Shown in pieces: positions 37,148 to 60,545 of a DNA stretch of 64,000 bases. The stretch lies in assembly GCA_021779955.1 (NCBI GenBank), contig JAJXZS010000048.1:1-64000 (forward strand). Direction: 5' to 3'. Position 1 is the first letter of the stretch, and each line of letters begins with the position of its first letter. Source of the stretch: Chloroflexota bacterium. Its GTDB lineage: Bacteria; Chloroflexota; Anaerolineae; Anaerolineales; Anaerolineaceae. The notes beneath the pieces were generated by a model, which had not been told where the DNA came from, made no database searches, and was given only the letters and a program-made list of their open reading frames with translations. Made by a program: the position numbers and the translations under genes.

Positions 37148-37183
37148 AACAAAATGAAACGGCGGGTTTATACCCGCCGTTTC
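37148..37183 (-). terminator. Terminator of the B12 mutase operon
   Basis: GAAACGGCGGGT and ACCCGCCGTTTC form a 12-bp stem with a 4-base loop, then ATTTTGTTT on the minus strand, directly after the last operon gene. Confidence 0.85.
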
Positions 37184-37185
37184 GG

Positions 37186-38097
37186 TTAGACGATGCGCTG
37201 CATCACTTCTTCGAGTGTAAAGGGGAGGAAGTAGAGCGGGGGAATCTCAAGCATGGTGTATACGCCGGGGGCGAGCTTCATGACAGCGCGAGCAGCTGCG
37301 ATCATCACCTGGGCAGTGGAAGCCGGATTGTGGAATGTAGTGTCGAAGTTCAGCAACTGGTTGTCCACCCCTGATGCACCTCCCTTTCGATGTATCTGGA
37401 TTGCATGCCCCATATCGACAAGCGGAGCCACGTCTGGTACCTGAAAAACTCTAACTGAATCATGTTTGAAGTAGGAATCCTCGAGGATGGCACTCTTTAT
37501 TTTCTCGAATTCGGCATCGGGTTCGAGCTCGAGGTACAGATCCCGGTTATGGCAGCCCGGATCGCCCGGCCGGGTAATGGAAAGCGCATCCTTAACACCG
37601 GGGTAAGATTTTGCTGCGACCGTATGACCCATACTCATGCCCGGACCATATGTCACGTAGGTCAGACCGGTGGGCGTCCAGACTTCAAACAATGCGCGGA
37701 TGATGGTGCTCATTCCAGGATCCACGCCTGCGCCCATCACTGATGCAGCACCGGCCTTCAGCGCGGGTGGTTCCAGTGCATCGCGAAGATGCAAGAATGG
37801 CTCGCCGTGCATATCAAAGCAATCCACTGTCCGGATTCCTTGTTCAAGCAGCTCAGGGGCTGTTTTTTCCACATTGCGGCTGGGTACTGTCAATACTGCA
37901 ACGTCGGGTTTGTCGGGAAGGTCGCGAATATCCTCGACTGTGAGCGTGCCTGGGAAGTCATTCTTTACTTTGTCTATGCAGGTTTGGCGTTCGATGATAC
38001 CGAGGAGATCAAGATCTGGCGCCAACCGCACGGCACGAACCGCATACGACCCGATATGACCGCATCCTATTACAGCAACCTTGTACTTGTTTGCCAT
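37186..38097 (-). CDS. Diaminopimelate-dehydrogenase-like NAD(P) oxidoreductase
   Basis: This 303-residue protein follows meso-diaminopimelate D-dehydrogenase closely in layout: GCGHIGSYAVRAVRLAPD (Rossmann), VAVLTVPSRNVEKTAPELL, TVDCFDMHGE, a GAGVDPGMSTIIRALFE segment where Ddh usually has GWDPG, YGPGMSMGHTVAAK, and NPASTAQVMIAAARA. Ddh oxidatively deaminates the D centre of meso-DAP. The Trp to Val change and its place in a B12 mutase operon suggest a different diamino acid substrate. It is the last gene before the terminator. Confidence 0.8.
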   Translation of the reverse strand: MANKYKVAVIGCGHIGSYAVRAVRLAPDLDLLGIIERQTCIDKVKNDFPGTLTVEDIRDLPDKPDVAVLTVPSRNVEKTAPELLEQGIRTVDCFDMHGEPFLHLRDALEPPALKAGAASVMGAGVDPGMSTIIRALFEVWTPTGLTYVTYGPGMSMGHTVAAKSYPGVKDALSITRPGDPGCHNRDLYLELEPDAEFEKIKSAILEDSYFKHDSVRVFQVPDVAPLVDMGHAIQIHRKGGASGVDNQLLNFDTTFHNPASTAQVMIAAARAVMKLAPGVYTMLEIPPLYFLPFTLEEVMQRIV

Positions 38098-38130
38098 AGT
38101 CCCTCTTTTTGTCCGATGTCATTTTTTATT

Positions 38131-38568
38131 TCACTCAAAGCGAAACTCGATTGGATCACCGGGTTTAAGGTTCAACTCGAACCCCGTCTGGTTTTGTTTT
38201 CCGGCCTTGACGATGATATTCATATGATTGGGCATGTGCGAGAACTCATAACCTGCAAGAGCACCAATGTTTTGTCCATTGATGGATACCTTGTCGCCCT
38301 GCCACAAGACTCCGCTGCCTGCGACCTCGAAGAAACACACGTAAGCGATTCTTTCGATTCTCGATCCGGGACCGGCAGCCTCTTCGGTCAAGATCAATTC
38401 ATGGATTTCATGCTTCAAGACAGCCCTGGATGGAAAAGGCGCCAGGATCAAGCCCCGATTTTCAGCCCTGGCGTGCAAGACTGCACTGACCCGAGCCATC
38501 ACCGGTTCTTTGGCTGTGCATGGCATGGCATGATCGAGCAAGCGGTCTAGGTAAGGATCTTTTGGCAC
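38131..38568 (-). CDS. Unknown protein of the B12 mutase operon
   Basis: This 145-residue protein has a GTG start after AGAGGAG. It is soluble and beta-rich (RAENRGLILAPFPSRAVLKH, KVSINGQNIGALAGYEFSHMPNHMNI), ending KPGDPIEFRFE. No family or motif was recognised with confidence. It overlaps the KamB-like gene by 22 bp. Its strict place between the reactivase-like ATPase and the dehydrogenase suggests a role in the same pathway. Confidence 0.7.
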   Translation of the reverse strand: MPKDPYLDRLLDHAMPCTAKEPVMARVSAVLHARAENRGLILAPFPSRAVLKHEIHELILTEEAAGPGSRIERIAYVCFFEVAGSGVLWQGDKVSINGQNIGALAGYEFSHMPNHMNIIVKAGKQNQTGFELNLKPGDPIEFRFE

Positions 38569-39632
38569 TTTTGCTCCTCTCGCAGACCCAACAATTCCGA
38601 CCAGTTGGGTTGTTCCTCAACTTCGAGATCGAAAACCGGGATCGCACGAACTGCTTTGCGGACAGATTGTAAAAGCTCATTCCGGTCGGCGAAGGCCGGT
38701 TCGTAAGCATTTCCGTGCTTCGATCGGCGTGGGTAAAATGGATTCACAGTCAAACAAATCAAGGGAATCGACCGCAAGACTGTAAATTGAACCGCAGAAT
38801 TGGCAAGCAGTTTGCCCCATTGTTCAATGTGACCCGATGTGATCATCCGTAATGGGCTGGCCATAACCAGGCTTACCGGTAAGCGTGATCGATGATCGAA
38901 ATGCTCTCTTTCTAAAAGCCGGCCGAGTAATTCAGGATGGGCGACACCTGGGATGATCATCTTGCGCAGGATCATTCCCTTGGCCGCAGTGGAATCCAAT
39001 ACCGAAGGATCGATCAGATTTGCCGCAGGCAATGATCTGCTGCTGCCATCTTGATAGATGAAAATGCAATGCGTGGGGTGTGAAAGACCTTCGGGCTCAA
39101 CAGGCAGATTGAAAAAGGAGACCAGGGCAGAAATATGTTTGGTGACTTCGTCGATTCCCGAGTTGAAGGAGGCTCCAGTTGCCAGCACCAAGCCGTCACA
39201 CAAAATCATCGGGGTTAGTCTGTTCAATGCTCCATCCACCAACAACAAATCGATATCGAGCGTACGAAATCGTTCGATCAAATCAGCCAGGTCCTTCTGG
39301 CGGTTCGGCCCGGCAACCAGAACGGTGCCTTCTTCCAGAATCTCAGCAATGACGACCGCGCCCAGTATCGTCTTGCATTGGGTGGTCTGAACAATCTTGA
39401 GCTTTGCCGTGCCCGCTGCGACGCAATCCAAAGCAGTAGCTACCAGATCACCGGGCATCAAGGTATAGCGCGGTTTGGGCAATCCTGTGACGGTATCGAG
39501 TTGTTCGCCATCATATCCAATACTCGTCAAAGCAATCTTCCTGCTGCAGGCATGCAGTTCCTTCAAAGCGGAAAGAACTGTGGTGGTCTTTCCTGTATTT
39601 TTTGCTGTGCCTGCAAAGCCGATCGTTTTCAT
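38547..39632 (-). CDS. P-loop ATPase resembling the aminomutase reactivase subunit KamB
   Basis: This 361-residue protein begins MKTIGFAGTAKNTGKTTT, a Walker A loop (residues 8-16), with a Walker B-like DIDLLLVDGALNR. It resembles KamB-type proteins that help re-load cobalamin into PLP/B12 aminomutases; I recall this similarity and have not aligned it. It overlaps the mutase gene by 4 bp (ATGA), consistent with making a helper alongside its target. No KamC/MutS-like partner is in the window. Confidence 0.65.
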   Translation of the reverse strand: MKTIGFAGTAKNTGKTTTVLSALKELHACSRKIALTSIGYDGEQLDTVTGLPKPRYTLMPGDLVATALDCVAAGTAKLKIVQTTQCKTILGAVVIAEILEEGTVLVAGPNRQKDLADLIERFRTLDIDLLLVDGALNRLTPMILCDGLVLATGASFNSGIDEVTKHISALVSFFNLPVEPEGLSHPTHCIFIYQDGSSRSLPAANLIDPSVLDSTAAKGMILRKMIIPGVAHPELLGRLLEREHFDHRSRLPVSLVMASPLRMITSGHIEQWGKLLANSAVQFTVLRSIPLICLTVNPFYPRRSKHGNAYEPAFADRNELLQSVRKAVRAIPVFDLEVEEQPNWSELLGLREEQKCQKILT

Positions 39633-41461
39633 GCCTGCCTCGTGACTACTGTCCCTCTGCCCGCTCTACCCGGATACAGCCCATCTTCTGAATTTCCAAG
39701 CAGCCCTTCATAGATGCTTGCCACGAAATCTCCTCGTTTTTCGACAGCCTGGAGCACTGAAATGATATCTTCGTGAAGTCTGGACTGAATTCGTAGGGAA
39801 CGGGGCGTGGCTGTGTATCCGGAGTTTCCGGTAAAACGCATCATTTCCCGTACGCCCCTCAGGGTATCGACGCGTGCCTGGGCGGTGATGGGTCCTTTTG
39901 CGTATGCCTCGTCGGAAGAAGCCATCGTGATCGCATCGACACCGAGACTGGCTGCCAGCGATGCATAGGCCGCGGTGCTGACGGCCGATTGGACGCGATC
40001 GGGGGTATGCGTCATAAAGCCTACCGGCTCGCCCGGCCATACCGGGGTATCGATAAACTCGCGCCAGATGTTGAGCTTGGCAGCGTTCATATCGATACTG
40101 TTCTCGTCCATCTCGCCGCTTATCTGCATGTAAGGGGAAAAACACATCAGCGGTTTGGGGATGGGTTTGGCTCCGAGCTTTAGAGCAAGTGCCATCATGA
40201 TGAGCAAGCCGGCAAAAGTCTTATGCGGAGGAACGCCTGAGAGCTCATCGTTGCCTGGAATATCGAAGGGAATCCCGTACTGACTTGCCAGCATGATGGA
40301 GTACACCCCGTCAACAGTAAGGCGAGCTGGATCGGTTCCACCGCCGGTAGAGCCGTATGGGATGTTGATTTTGAACAGGTCGGCACCGGCTTCGGCTCCA
40401 AGGACGAGGGTCTCGGGTGTGTTCAGCCCCCGATGACCGCGAATGTTCCACACCGTTCTGAGAGACAGGAACCTCTTGATTAATTTCAGGTTTTCCAGGG
40501 TGACGATTGTGCCGTCATGCTCGTGCGTGAGCAAGCCGCTCATCAAGCCTTCGTGCTGCGCACCCCAGGAGGGATCGAAATGCAGCACTCCATCGGCACC
40601 CCACGCCTCGCTGATCTTGATGTGCATGATGTCCATCACGGGGCAGCCTGTGCCATATTGGACAAAGAACAACGGTTTGCTCCCATTAAGGCGCAGGGTT
40701 CGATAAAATTGATCATCCGCCTTTAGTAAACGCGGCAGAACTTCAATTTCATCACCTGATACTTTCCGAACACCCGCGAGCAGCCTGCCATCCCGGTAGA
40801 AAGCCTGGATTTCAGAATCGCACAAAGCGAGATATCGATCTCGCAGCGCTTTGCCTTTGCCAGTGCCCGCCTGCAAAAAGTCGACGTTTTCTTGTATCGC
40901 CTGAGACCGGATTTCAGCCCGCTCGATACCGCCGGAGGATTTGTCTTTCACCCAATCGAGAATTTGGGCGGTAATGCTGTCCAGAATCGGCTCGATCCTG
41001 GTATCGATGAATTTATAGGAATATCCTGCGGTGATATCCGGTTTGAGATTCGTCCCAACTCTGACTCTCGCAGAATCGCCGGAAGCAGGCCTGTTCTCGA
41101 TGAATGCAAGAAGTGCGTTCATATCGAGATCGCCCGGGAAGATGGCGTCGAAACCGAGTTCTGCTCCGGCTTCCTTTGTGAGCGCCATGCCGCCAACTCC
41201 AAGCCTTGTCTTGTCACGCAAGCCGGCAGCATCCGCAAGATCGACGAATCTGCCAAGGATTTCTGCGGATTGATATCCCAGCGTACGGCTAACAAGGATC
41301 ACATCGGGGCAGATTTCCAGGGCTTTTCCGATGGCTTCTTCTTCGTTTGTGCCAGGCGGCATGCATTCGGTGTGATAGCCGGCTTCTCTCAATCGGCGTT
41401 GGATGAGTTTGACGGCATTGTCATGGACAGGATCGAGCGGGGCAAGCAGAATCTTCTTCAT
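39629..41461 (-). CDS. Cobalamin-binding TIM-barrel mutase, unknown substrate
   Basis: This 610-residue protein joins an N-terminal B12-binding Rossmann domain (residues 1-125; LDPVHDNAVKLIQRRL with His13 as probable axial ligand, then ILVSRTLGY and GVGGMALT) to a catalytic barrel (about 250-560; FVQYGTGCPVMDI, NIRGHRGLNTPETLVLG, INIPYGSTGGGTDP, ITMASSDEAYAKGP). The barrel recalls glutamate mutase E and aminomutase large subunits, but domain order and sequence differ from MutE, KamD and OraE. The usual DxHxxG loop is altered. It is coupled by ATGA overlaps to both neighbours. Confidence 0.75.
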   Translation of the reverse strand: MKKILLAPLDPVHDNAVKLIQRRLREAGYHTECMPPGTNEEEAIGKALEICPDVILVSRTLGYQSAEILGRFVDLADAAGLRDKTRLGVGGMALTKEAGAELGFDAIFPGDLDMNALLAFIENRPASGDSARVRVGTNLKPDITAGYSYKFIDTRIEPILDSITAQILDWVKDKSSGGIERAEIRSQAIQENVDFLQAGTGKGKALRDRYLALCDSEIQAFYRDGRLLAGVRKVSGDEIEVLPRLLKADDQFYRTLRLNGSKPLFFVQYGTGCPVMDIMHIKISEAWGADGVLHFDPSWGAQHEGLMSGLLTHEHDGTIVTLENLKLIKRFLSLRTVWNIRGHRGLNTPETLVLGAEAGADLFKINIPYGSTGGGTDPARLTVDGVYSIMLASQYGIPFDIPGNDELSGVPPHKTFAGLLIMMALALKLGAKPIPKPLMCFSPYMQISGEMDENSIDMNAAKLNIWREFIDTPVWPGEPVGFMTHTPDRVQSAVSTAAYASLAASLGVDAITMASSDEAYAKGPITAQARVDTLRGVREMMRFTGNSGYTATPRSLRIQSRLHEDIISVLQAVEKRGDFVASIYEGLLGNSEDGLYPGRAGRGTVVTRQA

Positions 41462-41763
41462 TTGCCGCCGTCTTCCAACCAGAGATAATGGTCGCCGGGG
41501 TGGTGAATGTAAGCGCGCAAGCGGACTCTGGCACCAGGTCCGCTGTGTTCGAGGAAAACAACGTCACCACGGGGCAGGTTCATTTCAACCAACAATCGTT
41601 CCGCCAGCTTTCGTCCTTCTTCGGCCGAATTACAGATCAGGAAGGTCTCAATATCGATTGCATCGAGAACATGATCGGTCGCTTTGCCCAAGTTCACCTC
41701 TTCGAATTCCCTGCAGCAGCGAATCTTAATGAAACTTGAACTCAGAGATGGGCATCTGTCCAT
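41458..41763 (-). CDS. Small unknown subunit of the B12 mutase operon
   Basis: The gene encodes 101 residues if ATG 41763 is used. A GTG at 41697 (79 residues) is a serious alternative, because the ATG lies inside a perfect hairpin and lacks a ribosome binding site. The protein is alpha/beta (DHVLDAIDIETFLICNSAEEG, VVFLEHSGPGARVRLRAYIHHPG). It is not like OraS or MutS. Its 4-bp overlap with the mutase gene suggests a small partner subunit. Confidence 0.65.
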   Translation of the reverse strand: MDRCPSLSSSFIKIRCCREFEEVNLGKATDHVLDAIDIETFLICNSAEEGRKLAERLLVEMNLPRGDVVFLEHSGPGARVRLRAYIHHPGDHYLWLEDGGK

Positions 41764-41770
41764 CTCTGAG
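41741..41770 (-). promoter_or_regulatory. 11-bp hairpin at the start of the small mutase-operon gene
   Basis: CTCAGAGATGG and CCATCTCTGAG are perfectly complementary around an 8-base loop, 17 bases after the PLP gene stop. It contains the ATG at 41763. It could attenuate transcription or mask the start. Confidence 0.6.
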
Positions 41771-41786
41771 CATGTTGACCATCCAC

Positions 41787-43256
41787 TTAATCGATCACGC
41801 CTGCCGTGCGCGAGATGATTTCAATCGCTTTGAACATGGCACGGACCATCATACGTGTCGGCTGCTCGAGCAACCGGCCTTCTTCATCCAGGTTACCCAC
41901 GCCGTTGGAGACCATGATGTTTGCGTCGTATGCGATGGTTGGAATCAGGCCCATCTGCGACATGCAATTCTGCAGAATATGGCTGCCTGCATACATATCT
42001 TCGATCGAGAAGACCGGAATGCCCATCTGGCCTTCTTTCCAGGTATCGGCATAATTCAGTTCGACAGAAAGGCAATTTTGCGATTTGTAGATGCTCCAGC
42101 CGGTCTGCAGCGATTTGGGAAGCGCCTCGAACTCCTGCAGAGTGATCTTATAGAGGTCATCCAATGCAGTGAGGGCAATCTGGGGACGATCTTTAAGGAT
42201 CTTCATTGCCGCCAGGGTGCCCGCCAAGGCTTCTTTACCGGGGTCAAAGCCGACATATGCGGCCTTACCGTGTGAGCTCAATGTGCCATAGCGTGCGCCG
42301 TGAATCCCAAGCGCGCGGCGGATGAGCACCATCGGCTCTTCCTTGCCAATGATCAGGCCGCTTGTCGGAGCGCCGGAGGCTTTGTCCATCGAGTAGATGA
42401 TCAAATCCGCACCTGTTTTACGCAGGTCGGTGCCGATGAATGGAACTCCCCAGGCATTATCCACGATATAGGGGATGTCATACTCGGCGGCAAGTTGCGC
42501 CATGCCTTTCTGGAACAAAGGAGCGCCTTCGTGGTCTTTTTCACCGTAGCCGTATCCCGGGGTGTCATATCCAAGAGATGCTATTCCCGAGAGGGTGTCT
42601 GCATTACGGGATGCCACTTCCTCGAAGCGTTTGAGTGATTTTGCAGCATCAACATGCAGCATATTGGGAATTGGATTGTATTTGATCCCGTGGCAATCGT
42701 AGGTTGCGCCTACCGGTTTGACCACGAGTGTATCGAGGTTGAAAGCCCGTTTTCCCTGGACGCCATATTCGCCTGCAGCTTCACCTCTTTCAGCATTCAC
42801 CTCTTTGTACTTGGGAGGGAAGGGCCGGCCGTATGCGCCCTGGTGATGCAGATGGCGTTCGTATGGGGCGATATAGCGGGTGCGGTAGGGATCGCCTTTA
42901 CCCAGGGTTGGCGGAGTGCACAGAACATCATAAGCTGTGAATAATCCGGCTTCGCAGGTATTGATCAGGGCCGCATCGTATTCATCACCGTAAAATTCCT
43001 TGACAACGTCACGGATTTGTTCATCAAGGACAGCCGAAGGGAGGACCTTACGGGCTGCATCGTGCATTGCCTCTTCCACCTCGCGTGACAACAAGCCATG
43101 GCATCCCGAGACCGCACCTGTCAAGCCCAGGTTGCCCTTGAGTGATCCTGTGATGCCAATCTCTTCGGAAAATCTCTTTGCTTCGGCATAGATCGTAGTT
43201 GCGTTTGCTTGAAGATGCTTGTACATCTGGTAACGGAATTGCCATTTCTTGGTCAT
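41787..43256 (-). CDS. PLP-dependent fold-type I enzyme of the B12 mutase operon
   Basis: This 489-residue protein starts at an ATG with AAGAGGAG upstream. The PLP site is visible: IPYIVDNAWGVPFIG (Asp for the pyridine nitrogen) and IIYSMDKASGAPTSG, where Lys is the likely Schiff base. An HVDAAKSLKRFEEVA segment precedes. It looks like aminotransferase class V/SelA-type enzymes but I cannot name a family. In known PLP/B12 aminomutases PLP is held by the mutase itself, so a separate PLP enzyme may act before or after the mutase, as racemase, lyase or transferase. Confidence 0.75.
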   Translation of the reverse strand: MTKKWQFRYQMYKHLQANATTIYAEAKRFSEEIGITGSLKGNLGLTGAVSGCHGLLSREVEEAMHDAARKVLPSAVLDEQIRDVVKEFYGDEYDAALINTCEAGLFTAYDVLCTPPTLGKGDPYRTRYIAPYERHLHHQGAYGRPFPPKYKEVNAERGEAAGEYGVQGKRAFNLDTLVVKPVGATYDCHGIKYNPIPNMLHVDAAKSLKRFEEVASRNADTLSGIASLGYDTPGYGYGEKDHEGAPLFQKGMAQLAAEYDIPYIVDNAWGVPFIGTDLRKTGADLIIYSMDKASGAPTSGLIIGKEEPMVLIRRALGIHGARYGTLSSHGKAAYVGFDPGKEALAGTLAAMKILKDRPQIALTALDDLYKITLQEFEALPKSLQTGWSIYKSQNCLSVELNYADTWKEGQMGIPVFSIEDMYAGSHILQNCMSQMGLIPTIAYDANIMVSNGVGNLDEEGRLLEQPTRMMVRAMFKAIEIISRTAGVID

Positions 43257-43283
43257 GAAGTTCTCCTCTTGATGTTGGATGAT

Positions 43284-44003
43284 TTATTCCAGGTAGCTGT
43301 TTCCGGCCGAACCCTGGCCGTTTGTCTGGTTGATTGCCTTGATAAGAGCCTGAATATCGACGTTCTCGAGCTCTGCAAGTACATTACGCAAGTGATCTTT
43401 CATCGCAGTTTCCGCAGCTTCTGCATTCTTCGATCGAATGGCTTCCAGAACTCGCCTATGTTCGATTACCGAGGTCGGTTGGGCACCTCGCTGAACGTTC
43501 GAGAGGACCCTGAATCTTTGAATGTGGTCATCGAGGTTCGCAAGGATGGCGCGCAGGCGTTGATTTCCCGATTTCTCGAGGATCAGTCGATGAAAACGTT
43601 TGTTGAGTTCAGATGCGTTCAACAGCTCACCCGACTTGAGCATGGCTGCCTGATCGGCAAGGATCTGGGCGGCCTGCTGAAGATCAGCAGTTGTGAAATG
43701 CGAGGTCGCCTCGCGGGCGGCCAACCCTTCGAGAACCGCGCGTATCTCAAACACTTCCATCACCGATTGAGCCGTGATATCGGTAACGTAAGTCCCTTTG
43801 TAGATAATCTTGGTCACCAGGCCTTCGCGCTCCAGGCGGGTGAGCGCATCTCTCACTGGAGTCTTGCTGATGTTGAGTTGATTCGAAAGCTCTGCTTCAA
43901 CCAGCGCATCTCCGGGCTTGAGATGGAACTCTAGAATGGCTTTCTTAATGGCATCATAAGCGAATTTTTCAAGGGATACAGGTGCGGGTGAATTTGGAAG
44001 CAT
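43284..44003 (-). CDS. GntR/FadR-type regulator of the B12 mutase operon
   Basis: This 239-residue protein has a winged HTH (SLEKFAYDAIKKAIL, GDALVEAELSNQLNISKTPV, RDALTRLEREGLV) followed by an FCD ligand-binding domain (FEIRAVLEGLAAREA, FHRLILEKSGNQRL). FCD regulators often sense organic or amino acids. It is the first gene of the operon, 27 bp before the PLP gene, and its own promoter overlaps a palindrome, so autoregulation is likely. The ATG lies 6 bases after the -10, giving a leaderless mRNA. Confidence 0.9.
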   Translation of the reverse strand: MLPNSPAPVSLEKFAYDAIKKAILEFHLKPGDALVEAELSNQLNISKTPVRDALTRLEREGLVTKIIYKGTYVTDITAQSVMEVFEIRAVLEGLAAREATSHFTTADLQQAAQILADQAAMLKSGELLNASELNKRFHRLILEKSGNQRLRAILANLDDHIQRFRVLSNVQRGAQPTSVIEHRRVLEAIRSKNAEAAETAMKDHLRNVLAELENVDIQALIKAINQTNGQGSAGNSYLE

Positions 44004-44009
44004 GACAAG

Positions 44010-44037
44010 ATTATATCATATATGATATATGATTCAA
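44010..44037 (-). promoter_or_regulatory. Promoter with palindromic operator for the B12 mutase operon
   Basis: The minus strand reads TTGAAT, a 16-base spacer, TATAAT. The spacer and -10 contain ATCATATATGAT, a perfect palindrome of the kind bound by GntR dimers. Confidence 0.7.
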
Positions 44038-60306: not shown

Positions 60307-60323
60307 CATAAAATGCTGTTTCT

Positions 60324-60439
60324 CTCATCTTCCAGATCGACCTTATAAAGCGTTTTACTCAAGGTCGCTGCCGGATTTGGCACCTGACTTTCGGTTGCCG
60401 AGGCTTCACAGGGCCGGTCCCTCCGCCTCTCTGGATGAG
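60324..60439 (-). promoter_or_regulatory. SAM-I (S-box) riboswitch
   Basis: The minus strand shows P1 CTCATC (60434-60439) pairing with GATGAG (60324-60329), and the S-box core AGAGAGGCGGAGGGACCGGC, then GCCTCGGCAACC and AGGTGCCAAATCC. High SAM should favour the downstream terminator and switch off metH and the MTHFR fusion. Confidence 0.95.
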
Positions 60440-60545
60440 CGGGTAGGCATTTCGCCTCCCAAGATTCTAAAAATTCTACCACGGAAAGGAGTGCTTTTCA
60501 AATATCGCTATCCATATTTCAACTGCAAAACAAGAGGATTATTGC

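Follow-up and report, generated by a model that had tools for sequence, protein, structure and literature searches.

An uncharacterized B12 mutase-type operon of an Anaerolineaceae bacterium, with an aminomutase-like barrel that appears to lack most of the PLP site

Genes and signals at the locus

The window analysed here is a stretch of 64,000 nucleotides from a Chloroflexota bacterium of the family Anaerolineaceae (GCA_021779955.1, contig JAJXZS010000048.1, positions 1 to 64,000). Its minus strand carries, at 44003-37186, a seven-gene operon that encodes a putative adenosylcobalamin (AdoCbl)-dependent mutase, a separate enzyme of the pyridoxal 5′-phosphate (PLP) type and five further proteins (Table 1). 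A first-pass annotation of this DNA had described seven tightly packed genes with ATGA overlaps and one terminator, and all of them are found where it had placed them. The ATGA overlaps, of 4 nt, join the small-subunit gene to the mutase gene and the mutase gene to the KamB-like gene. With the GTG start, the KamB-like and DUF6917 genes overlap by 22 nt. The regulator is separated from the PLP gene by 27 nt, and the DUF6917 gene from the last gene by 33 nt.

Table 1. Features of the operon and its 3′ flank
Feature	Coordinates	Strand	Basis or remark
FCD-domain GntR-type regulator	43284..44003	-	PF07729 100.4 bits, PF00392 59.4 bits
PLP enzyme, fold type I, 489 aa	41787..43256	-	no curated family; AlphaFold2 model
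Small subunit, ~78 aa	41458..41694 (listed open reading frame 41458-41763)	-	hhalign to OraE domain
Mutase, 610 aa	39629..41461	-	B12 Rossmann domain ~1-125; helical domain and KamD-like TIM barrel ~150-610
KamB-like reactivase	38547..39632	-	NF052386 208.9 bits
DUF6917 protein (PF21891), probable PLP-enzyme partner	38131..38568	-	139.5 bits vs cut-off 27
Type-II meso-diaminopimelate dehydrogenase-like oxidoreductase (Ddh-like)	37186..38097	-	TIGR01921 203 bits vs cut-off 180.6
Terminator-like hairpin	37156..37183	-	12 pairs, 8 GC, T-rich tail

The hairpin has the most pairs among the nine terminator-like sites of the region, a number at chance level (10.7 expected). Likewise, the promoter-like site at 44037-44010 (minus strand) is one of nine, with 8.9 expected by chance; the transcription start expected from it would coincide with the ATG of the regulator gene, and the transcript is possibly leaderless. 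A scan of genome contigs confirmed a mutase relative at 83 loci, of which 80 were kept. Since most of these loci share several of the same neighbours, the operon goes beyond a chance arrangement. The neighbour counts given below refer to 81 loci and are lower bounds, as contig ends intervene.

A mutase with known parts in a new order

The mutase was modelled with AlphaFold2 at a predicted local distance difference test score (pLDDT) of 90.0, from 55 alignment rows. By fold comparison, residues 1-125 form a B12 Rossmann domain (1y80, Z 18.8; 4r3u_D, Z 18.6), and residues 150-610 are closest to the alpha subunit of lysine 5,6-aminomutase (LAM; 1xrs_A, Z 34.0, 2.8 Å over 389 residues), followed by glutamate mutase (1cb7_B, Z 27.9) and ornithine 4,5-aminomutase (OAM; 3kp1_A, Z 27.1). 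In profile comparisons with hhalign, the barrel matches KamD at 91.3% over 398 columns, starting at about residue 157, while OraE and MutE reach 38.6% and 37.2%; reversed profiles give at most 0.6% and an unrelated PLP profile 0.7%. MutE was therefore rejected as the closest relative of the barrel, KamD being nearer by both fold and profile. For the B12 domain, the best sequence match is KamE (67.5 bits), with corrinoid proteins at 42.4 bits; the B12-binding model PF02310 scores 25.1 bits, under its cut-off of 32.1.

The barrel, the PLP protein and the small protein match no Pfam or NCBIfam model above cut-off. In particular, the mutase stays far below the curated aminomutase models (NF052385, 36 vs 280 bits; NF040743, 17 vs 800 bits), has no match to PF09043 in the Pfam scan and none to PF06368, the MutE model, at E values up to 1. 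It represents an undescribed family outside the curated models, in which parts of the lysine and ornithine mutases occur in a new order. The first-pass annotation had noted a domain order unlike that of OraE, which is borne out by the N-terminal position of the B12 domain, before the barrel. It had also called this an uncharacterized B12-dependent mutase operon. In agreement, high identity to a characterized pathway was not found, and the B12 domain is recognized by both fold and sequence. No description of this operon was found in the literature searched, the coverage of which was partial, so that this is weak evidence of absence.

Replacement of PLP ligands in the barrel

The PLP ligands of LAM were taken from the accessible part of PMC3958899. 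R183 (=184), S188 (=189), Y235 (=236), S237 (=238), Y262 (=263), R267 (=268) and N298 (=299) are invariant in 15 KamD and OraE rows; the OraE rows share 23-26% identity with the first KamD row. In the new family, most of these columns hold other residues. The phosphate-ligand Arg184 column falls on D296, that of the phosphate ligand Ser189 on A301 or is unaligned, and that of the phosphate ligand Arg268 on G374 (45 G and 33 A among 78 sequences). The column of the N1 ligand, Ser238, holds R344, and the Tyr236 column holds G342 in the window (66 A, 11 G and 1 S of 78 in the family). The only clearly kept PLP ligand is the stacking Tyr263, present as Y369 in 78/78. For the asparagine that contacts O3′ (Asn299/Asn226), the counterpart is D405 by the KamD alignment (67 E, 11 D) and N404 (78/78) by the OraE alignment. 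As for the imine-lysine stretch (Lys144/Lys629), its OraE part falls in an alignment gap against the mutase; 11 positions past H13 the mutase has L24, a leucine in 77 of the 78 sequences and a methionine in one. A deletion of the TGQS loop, suggested by the KamD alignment, was not retained, as the OraE alignment sets D296 on the arginine and A301 on the serine with no gap. Because the deletion depends on the alignment, only the residue changes are claimed.

The B12-ligating histidine, by contrast, is kept as H13 in all 78 sequences of the seeded scan and at all 30 loci of a profile search. Within the DxHxxG motif of the mutase, the first aspartate is replaced by P11, and the glycine by A16 in the window (66 G and 12 A of 78). 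The glutamate associated with the adenosyl group also has a counterpart, since two separate alignments place E518 on OraE E336 (of TPDEG) and on MutE E330; OraE E336 corresponds to Glu338 of OAM, according to the available text of PMC4413051. Residues identical in 78/78 are D296, R341, H343, R344, K364, Y369, D400, N404, E406, D517 and E518. The scan that yielded the 78 sequences had been seeded with the peptides APLDPVHD and GGMA[LI]T[KQ]E, and for this reason the residue check was redone on loci that a profile search had found in 398 genomes sampled from the phylum group of Sporomusa ovata. From 40 near-full-length places, 30 loci were used, some of them in genomes seen already; the same residues, together with D10, P11, H13 and K18, are identical in 30/30.

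To judge from these alignments, the barrel has lost the greater part of a PLP site that does not vary among the KamD and OraE rows, so that a PLP-dependent amino shift in it is unlikely. The first-pass view of an aminomutase of the PLP kind is not sustained. Instead, the retained histidine and glutamate, along with the replaced PLP ligands, favour a working AdoCbl radical enzyme that would not hold PLP in the manner of LAM and OAM.

The small protein as a detached domain

At 78 of the 81 loci, the small-protein gene precedes the mutase gene in the same orientation, with end-to-start distances of -15 to 245 nt. Its profile matches the OraE domain that lies between the barrel and the Rossmann domain (hhalign 77.1%, score 32.4, 55 columns), and 35 unrelated profiles score at most 21.0. 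The match to the N-terminus of KamE is 3.6% and that to the OraE and KamE domains combined 53.2%; these two domain profiles match one another at 94.5%. Against solved structures, the best E value of the small-protein profile is 0.07, taken as chance. The homology begins at about 41694, inside the listed reading frame, and so the true start may be a GTG or TTG near that position.

Identification of the small protein as OraS, which the first-pass annotation had also dismissed, was rejected because it matches the pre-Rossmann domain of OraE instead, OraS itself not having been directly compared. From this match, the parts of LAM and OAM appear to be present in another order, with the small protein as a stand-alone form of the OraE pre-Rossmann domain and the B12 domain fused before the barrel.

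The PLP enzyme and DUF6917

The PLP protein (AlphaFold2 pLDDT 87.6) has a type I fold, with tied matches to threonine aldolase (Z 23.4) and SepCysS (Z 22.8), and Cap15 and SelA in the top rows of Foldseek. The reaction of the protein cannot be told from this modelled fold. D266 and K292, invariant in 36 rows, are taken, by analogy, as the PLP aspartate/lysine pair. The first-pass annotation had found no thiolase genes (ortA or ortB) in the operon, and this stands: the PLP protein matches the OrtB profile at 0.8%, and DUF6917 matches OrtA at 4.0% (score 20.5, with at most 19.1 over 35 unrelated profiles). As the best of 36 profiles by a narrow margin, OrtA was left as a hint and not adopted as a relative of DUF6917. 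The DUF6917 profile gives a best E value of 0.18 against solved structures, taken as chance, and no paper on DUF6917 was found in the literature searched, with its partial coverage.

In the 398-genome sample, a full-length mutase occurs in 39 genomes; 88 genomes gave a match, and in the remaining 49 it extends little beyond the B12 domain. Among the 39, the mutases of S. ovata (G447) and of G740 were matched in two pieces, the former with internal stops. The S. ovata gene (L097:8995-10816) is split into two open frames of 264 and 333 aa, through either a sequencing error or pseudogene formation. The PLP enzyme is present in 41 of the 398 genomes, including all 39 with the mutase (Fisher 4.6e-52), which accords with the first-pass proposal that PLP and B12 functions reside on separate proteins. 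The two genomes with the PLP gene alone have a 77-residue piece (G1125) and a full-length copy (G790). DUF6917 accompanies the mutase in 39/39 and is also found in G1125, but not in G790; it is absent from 20 control genomes that have neither the mutase nor the PLP gene, and present in all four Chloroflexota mutase genomes. Copy numbers of PLP enzyme and DUF6917 are equal in 38 of 41 genomes. Where there is more than one PLP copy (eight genomes), the copy number of DUF6917 agrees in six and that of the mutase in three. A separate search covered 14 mutase genomes, some of which also belong to the sample, and matched the PLP enzyme in 12, in one case as a 67-residue piece.

In five Fermentithermobacillaceae genomes, the DUF6917 and PLP genes lie apart from a group of small-protein, mutase, KamB-like and RidA genes. 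Since the pairs can lie apart and still co-occur, the small protein with the mutase, and the PLP enzyme with DUF6917, are separable units that travel together.

Accessory genes

Across the 81 loci, the neighbours of the mutase are the PLP gene (64), the KamB-like gene (56), the FCD regulator (56), DUF6917 (49), a flavin adenine dinucleotide (FAD) enzyme gene (36), RidA (31), a transporter-like gene (13) and Ddh (8). The KamB-like protein covers positions 3-326 of the 326 of NF052386 (E 9.3e-62) and misses the curated cut-off of 210 bits narrowly; its designation as a KamB-like ATPase can be kept in the sense of a reactivase-like protein. The assignment of the last gene as Ddh-like is upheld by its TIGR01921 score. 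Its closest solved relative is 3wb9 (E 2.5e-82), a full-length homologue. Of the ten diaminopimelate (DAP) contacts of StDAPDH, as listed in the available part of PMC7424261, eight are kept, with W121 replaced by V125 and F146 by Y150. The type-II Symbiobacterium enzyme also aminates 2-keto acids, as stated in the accessible text of PMC7084900.

The FAD gene is GidA-like (PF01134) and is accompanied by RidA at 21 of its 36 loci; at six loci, a second FAD gene lies downstream of a PyrK-like NAD-binding protein. The eight Ddh loci are all from Chloroflexota, and none has FAD or RidA genes. A strict rule by which Ddh stands in for FAD plus RidA was nevertheless discarded, because genome G741 has an FAD gene by its mutase (L029) and a Ddh gene by its PLP gene (L164). 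The transporter-like gene (c10) has no Pfam or NCBIfam match. Branched-chain-amino-acid-type ATP-binding cassette (ABC) transporter genes (c36, c41, c42) adjoin the cluster at L024, L026, L027 and L031, the binding protein of L027 being a PF13458 member, and these hint at an imported amino acid. In Verrucomicrobia, a lysA-like decarboxylase gene (cluster c46, one member scanned) lies 3′ of the mutase gene at four of nine loci (L079, L083, L085, L088).

Distribution and relation to ornithine fermentation

The mutase occurs in Bacillota, Chloroflexota and Verrucomicrobia, with single records from other groups. Close to the window's genome it is sparse: in a class-level sample it was found in one of 396 genomes, the window's own, and a full-length copy is present in four of 61 relatives. 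The congener G003 (L005) has a 46-residue match to mutase residues 405-450 (57% identity, internal stops), perhaps a decayed remnant. In the viral contigs searched, no relative was confirmed.

The operon is separate from the ornithine cluster of its own genome. The latter, ord-ortA-ortB-oraS-oraE with a GlmL-type gene, lies on contig C9 (L168, 1514-8307) and scores above the curated cut-offs for Ord (521.6 bits, cut-off 400), OrtA (126.2, 70), OrtB (807.6, 550) and OraE (1315.2, 800), with OraS identified by PF16552. Among nine other mutase genomes, OraE is present in four, in one case together with KamD, and MutE in two others.

Two further observations fall outside the operon. A second family without a curated model, of about 548-566 aa, combines an N-terminal B12-like domain with a MutE-related barrel (hhalign 96.6%); its members (L113:676-2319, L114:406-2049, L115:1231-2928, L116:1417-3063) come from Thermovorax, Thermosediminibacter, Fermentithermobacillus and Tepidanaerobacter. 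The window also contains an S-adenosylmethionine (SAM) riboswitch at 60322-60441 (minus strand, 76.9 bits).

Comparison with known systems

To our knowledge, few AdoCbl mutases of free amino acids are known, namely those of glutamate, D-ornithine and lysine. The new system shares with lysine 5,6-aminomutase KamD/KamE (1XRS, 8T0V, 9Q1A) the barrel fold, the B12 domain and a KamB-like reactivase. It differs in having the B12 domain before the barrel on one chain and the small domain as a gene of its own, in the apparent loss of most PLP ligands and in the company of a separate PLP enzyme. With D-ornithine 4,5-aminomutase OraS/OraE (3KOW, 3KP1) it has the kinds of domain in common, and E518 aligns with the Glu338 position. 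By contrast, its B12 domain is at the other end, OraS, OrtA and OrtB are missing from the operon, and the PLP lysine and phosphate ligands seem to be lost; moreover, the ornithine cluster of the same genome uses a GlmL-type accessory protein and the new operon a KamB-type one.

Glutamate mutase (MutS/MutE) works without PLP and pairs with a second enzyme. Its E330 and the SSDEA/TPHEA turn align with the new mutase, whereas the MutE barrel is the more distant one, its arginine claw is unaligned, and the partner in the new system is a PLP enzyme. Finally, the Ddh-like protein is alike in full length to the type-II meso-DAP dehydrogenase of Symbiobacterium (3WB9), from which it differs by the two substitutions noted above and by being encoded in a B12-mutase operon.

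A proposed module and its alternatives

We prefer, at about an even chance of being correct, a reading in which the operon encodes a catabolic module: a mutase of KamD lineage that works without PLP, and a separate PLP enzyme paired with DUF6917, would both serve a single route for some amino acid. The core would be of four proteins, the small subunit with the 610-aa mutase and the PLP enzyme with DUF6917. The mutase would be an AdoCbl radical enzyme of the lineage of lysine 5,6- and ornithine 4,5-aminomutase with reshuffled domains and, having apparently lost most of its own PLP site, would most likely perform a PLP-independent rearrangement similar to that of glutamate mutase. Its substrate may be an amino acid that bears one or more additional charged groups and is held through its carboxylates, for which R341, R344 and K364 are candidate ligands. 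The KamB-like protein would exchange damaged cofactor and thereby reactivate the mutase. The PLP enzyme and DUF6917 could carry out a separate step before or after the mutase, of the elimination, retro-aldol or racemization class; methylaspartate ammonia-lyase, which follows glutamate mutase, provides a model for such a pairing. The Ddh-like protein here, or the FAD enzyme, often with RidA, at many other loci, would oxidize an amino group to an imine or keto acid, and RidA would hydrolyze the imine. What the computations show directly is the architecture, the loss of most PLP ligands, the retained histidine and glutamate, the co-occurrence within the sample and the separation from the ornithine cluster; the PLP-free chemistry, these protein roles and the order of steps are inferred.

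Several observations weigh against this proposal. The KamD alignment places E518 on R420 and not on KamD E410, and the residue equivalences in general come from remote profile alignments (KamD 91.3%, OraE 38.6%, MutE 37.2%) and not from superposed coordinates. On the OraE alignment, N404 may be a retained O3′ asparagine (N299/N226), and the retained Y369 is compatible with bound PLP. The arginine claw of MutE (R66/R100/R149, as given in the available part of PMC9545868) yielded no reliable alignment to the mutase. Ddh occurs at just eight of the 81 loci and neither ddh nor fad at 37, some of them on short contigs, and two of the 14 mutase genomes searched separately, Paenibacillus G451 and Verrucomicrobia G739, gave no PLP match. 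Furthermore, the constant co-occurrence of mutase and PLP enzyme, in 39/39 genomes, is also expected of a split PLP/B12 aminomutase, in which the amino group would be shifted while the separate PLP protein carries the substrate as an external aldimine, or with PLP newly placed in the barrel, for example at K364. The closeness of the barrel to KamD and the kept Y369 suit such an enzyme, as does the invariance of K364 at the OraE histidine position taken as OAM His182. Nevertheless, we consider it unlikely: the invariant D296 stands at the phosphate arginine and the invariant R344 at the N1 serine, R268 and the imine-lysine stretch seem to be lost, and the PLP protein has a conserved D266/K292 of its own and is encoded together with DUF6917 elsewhere in several genomes.

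The remaining alternatives concern the substrate and the type of B12 chemistry. A route for meso-DAP, or a similar diamino-dicarboxylic acid, from peptidoglycan, with the Ddh-like protein oxidizing the D-centre, would fit the eight retained DAP contacts, the lysA-like gene near some Verrucomicrobia mutases and the basic and acidic invariants of the barrel. However, two residues of the DAP site (W121 and F146) are altered, 73 of the 81 loci have no ddh, the Symbiobacterium enzyme also acts on 2-keto acids and lysA may be a housekeeping gene, so that this route is quite improbable. Even less can be said for a variant of the known ornithine or lysine fermentations, a parallel that the first-pass annotation had drawn. 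Mutase, reactivase and dehydrogenase genes do stand side by side, as in those clusters, but the resemblance is loose, given the scarcity of Ddh, the FAD gene at 36 loci and the absence of both at 37. The separate ornithine cluster of the same genome, the OraE (once with KamD) of four of the nine other mutase genomes and the negligible match of the PLP protein to OrtB render such a variant very improbable. The same very low probability applies to a corrinoid methyl-transfer or other non-mutase B12 protein, which the match of the B12 domain to corrinoid proteins (1y80 by fold, 42.4 bits by sequence) would allow; KamE is the better sequence match for this domain, and the KamD-like barrel, E518 and the KamB-like reactivase speak for a mutase.

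A bolder form of the preferred reading, a PLP-free mutase with a separate PLP enzyme, is tentative and more apt to fail than to hold. In it, the mutase would be the first AdoCbl enzyme of the aminomutase lineage to have given up its built-in PLP, with the PLP step placed on a constant, separate enzyme that has DUF6917 as a new subunit. The module would perform a new rearrangement, possibly on a diamino-dicarboxylic acid of the cell wall, and would represent a naturally occurring halfway stage that links amino shifts dependent on PLP with carbon-skeleton shifts that do without it.

Significance

The operon adds a further undescribed mutase family with a fixed set of partners, present in 39 of the 398 genomes sampled from the phylum group of Sporomusa. 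An understanding of this module would explain what DUF6917 does, what a fold-type-I PLP family that lacks a curated model contributes, and which role a KamB-like protein plays outside lysine fermentation. A mechanistic question becomes testable as well, namely how the scaffold of a PLP-dependent radical aminomutase turns into, or arose from, a PLP-free mutase.

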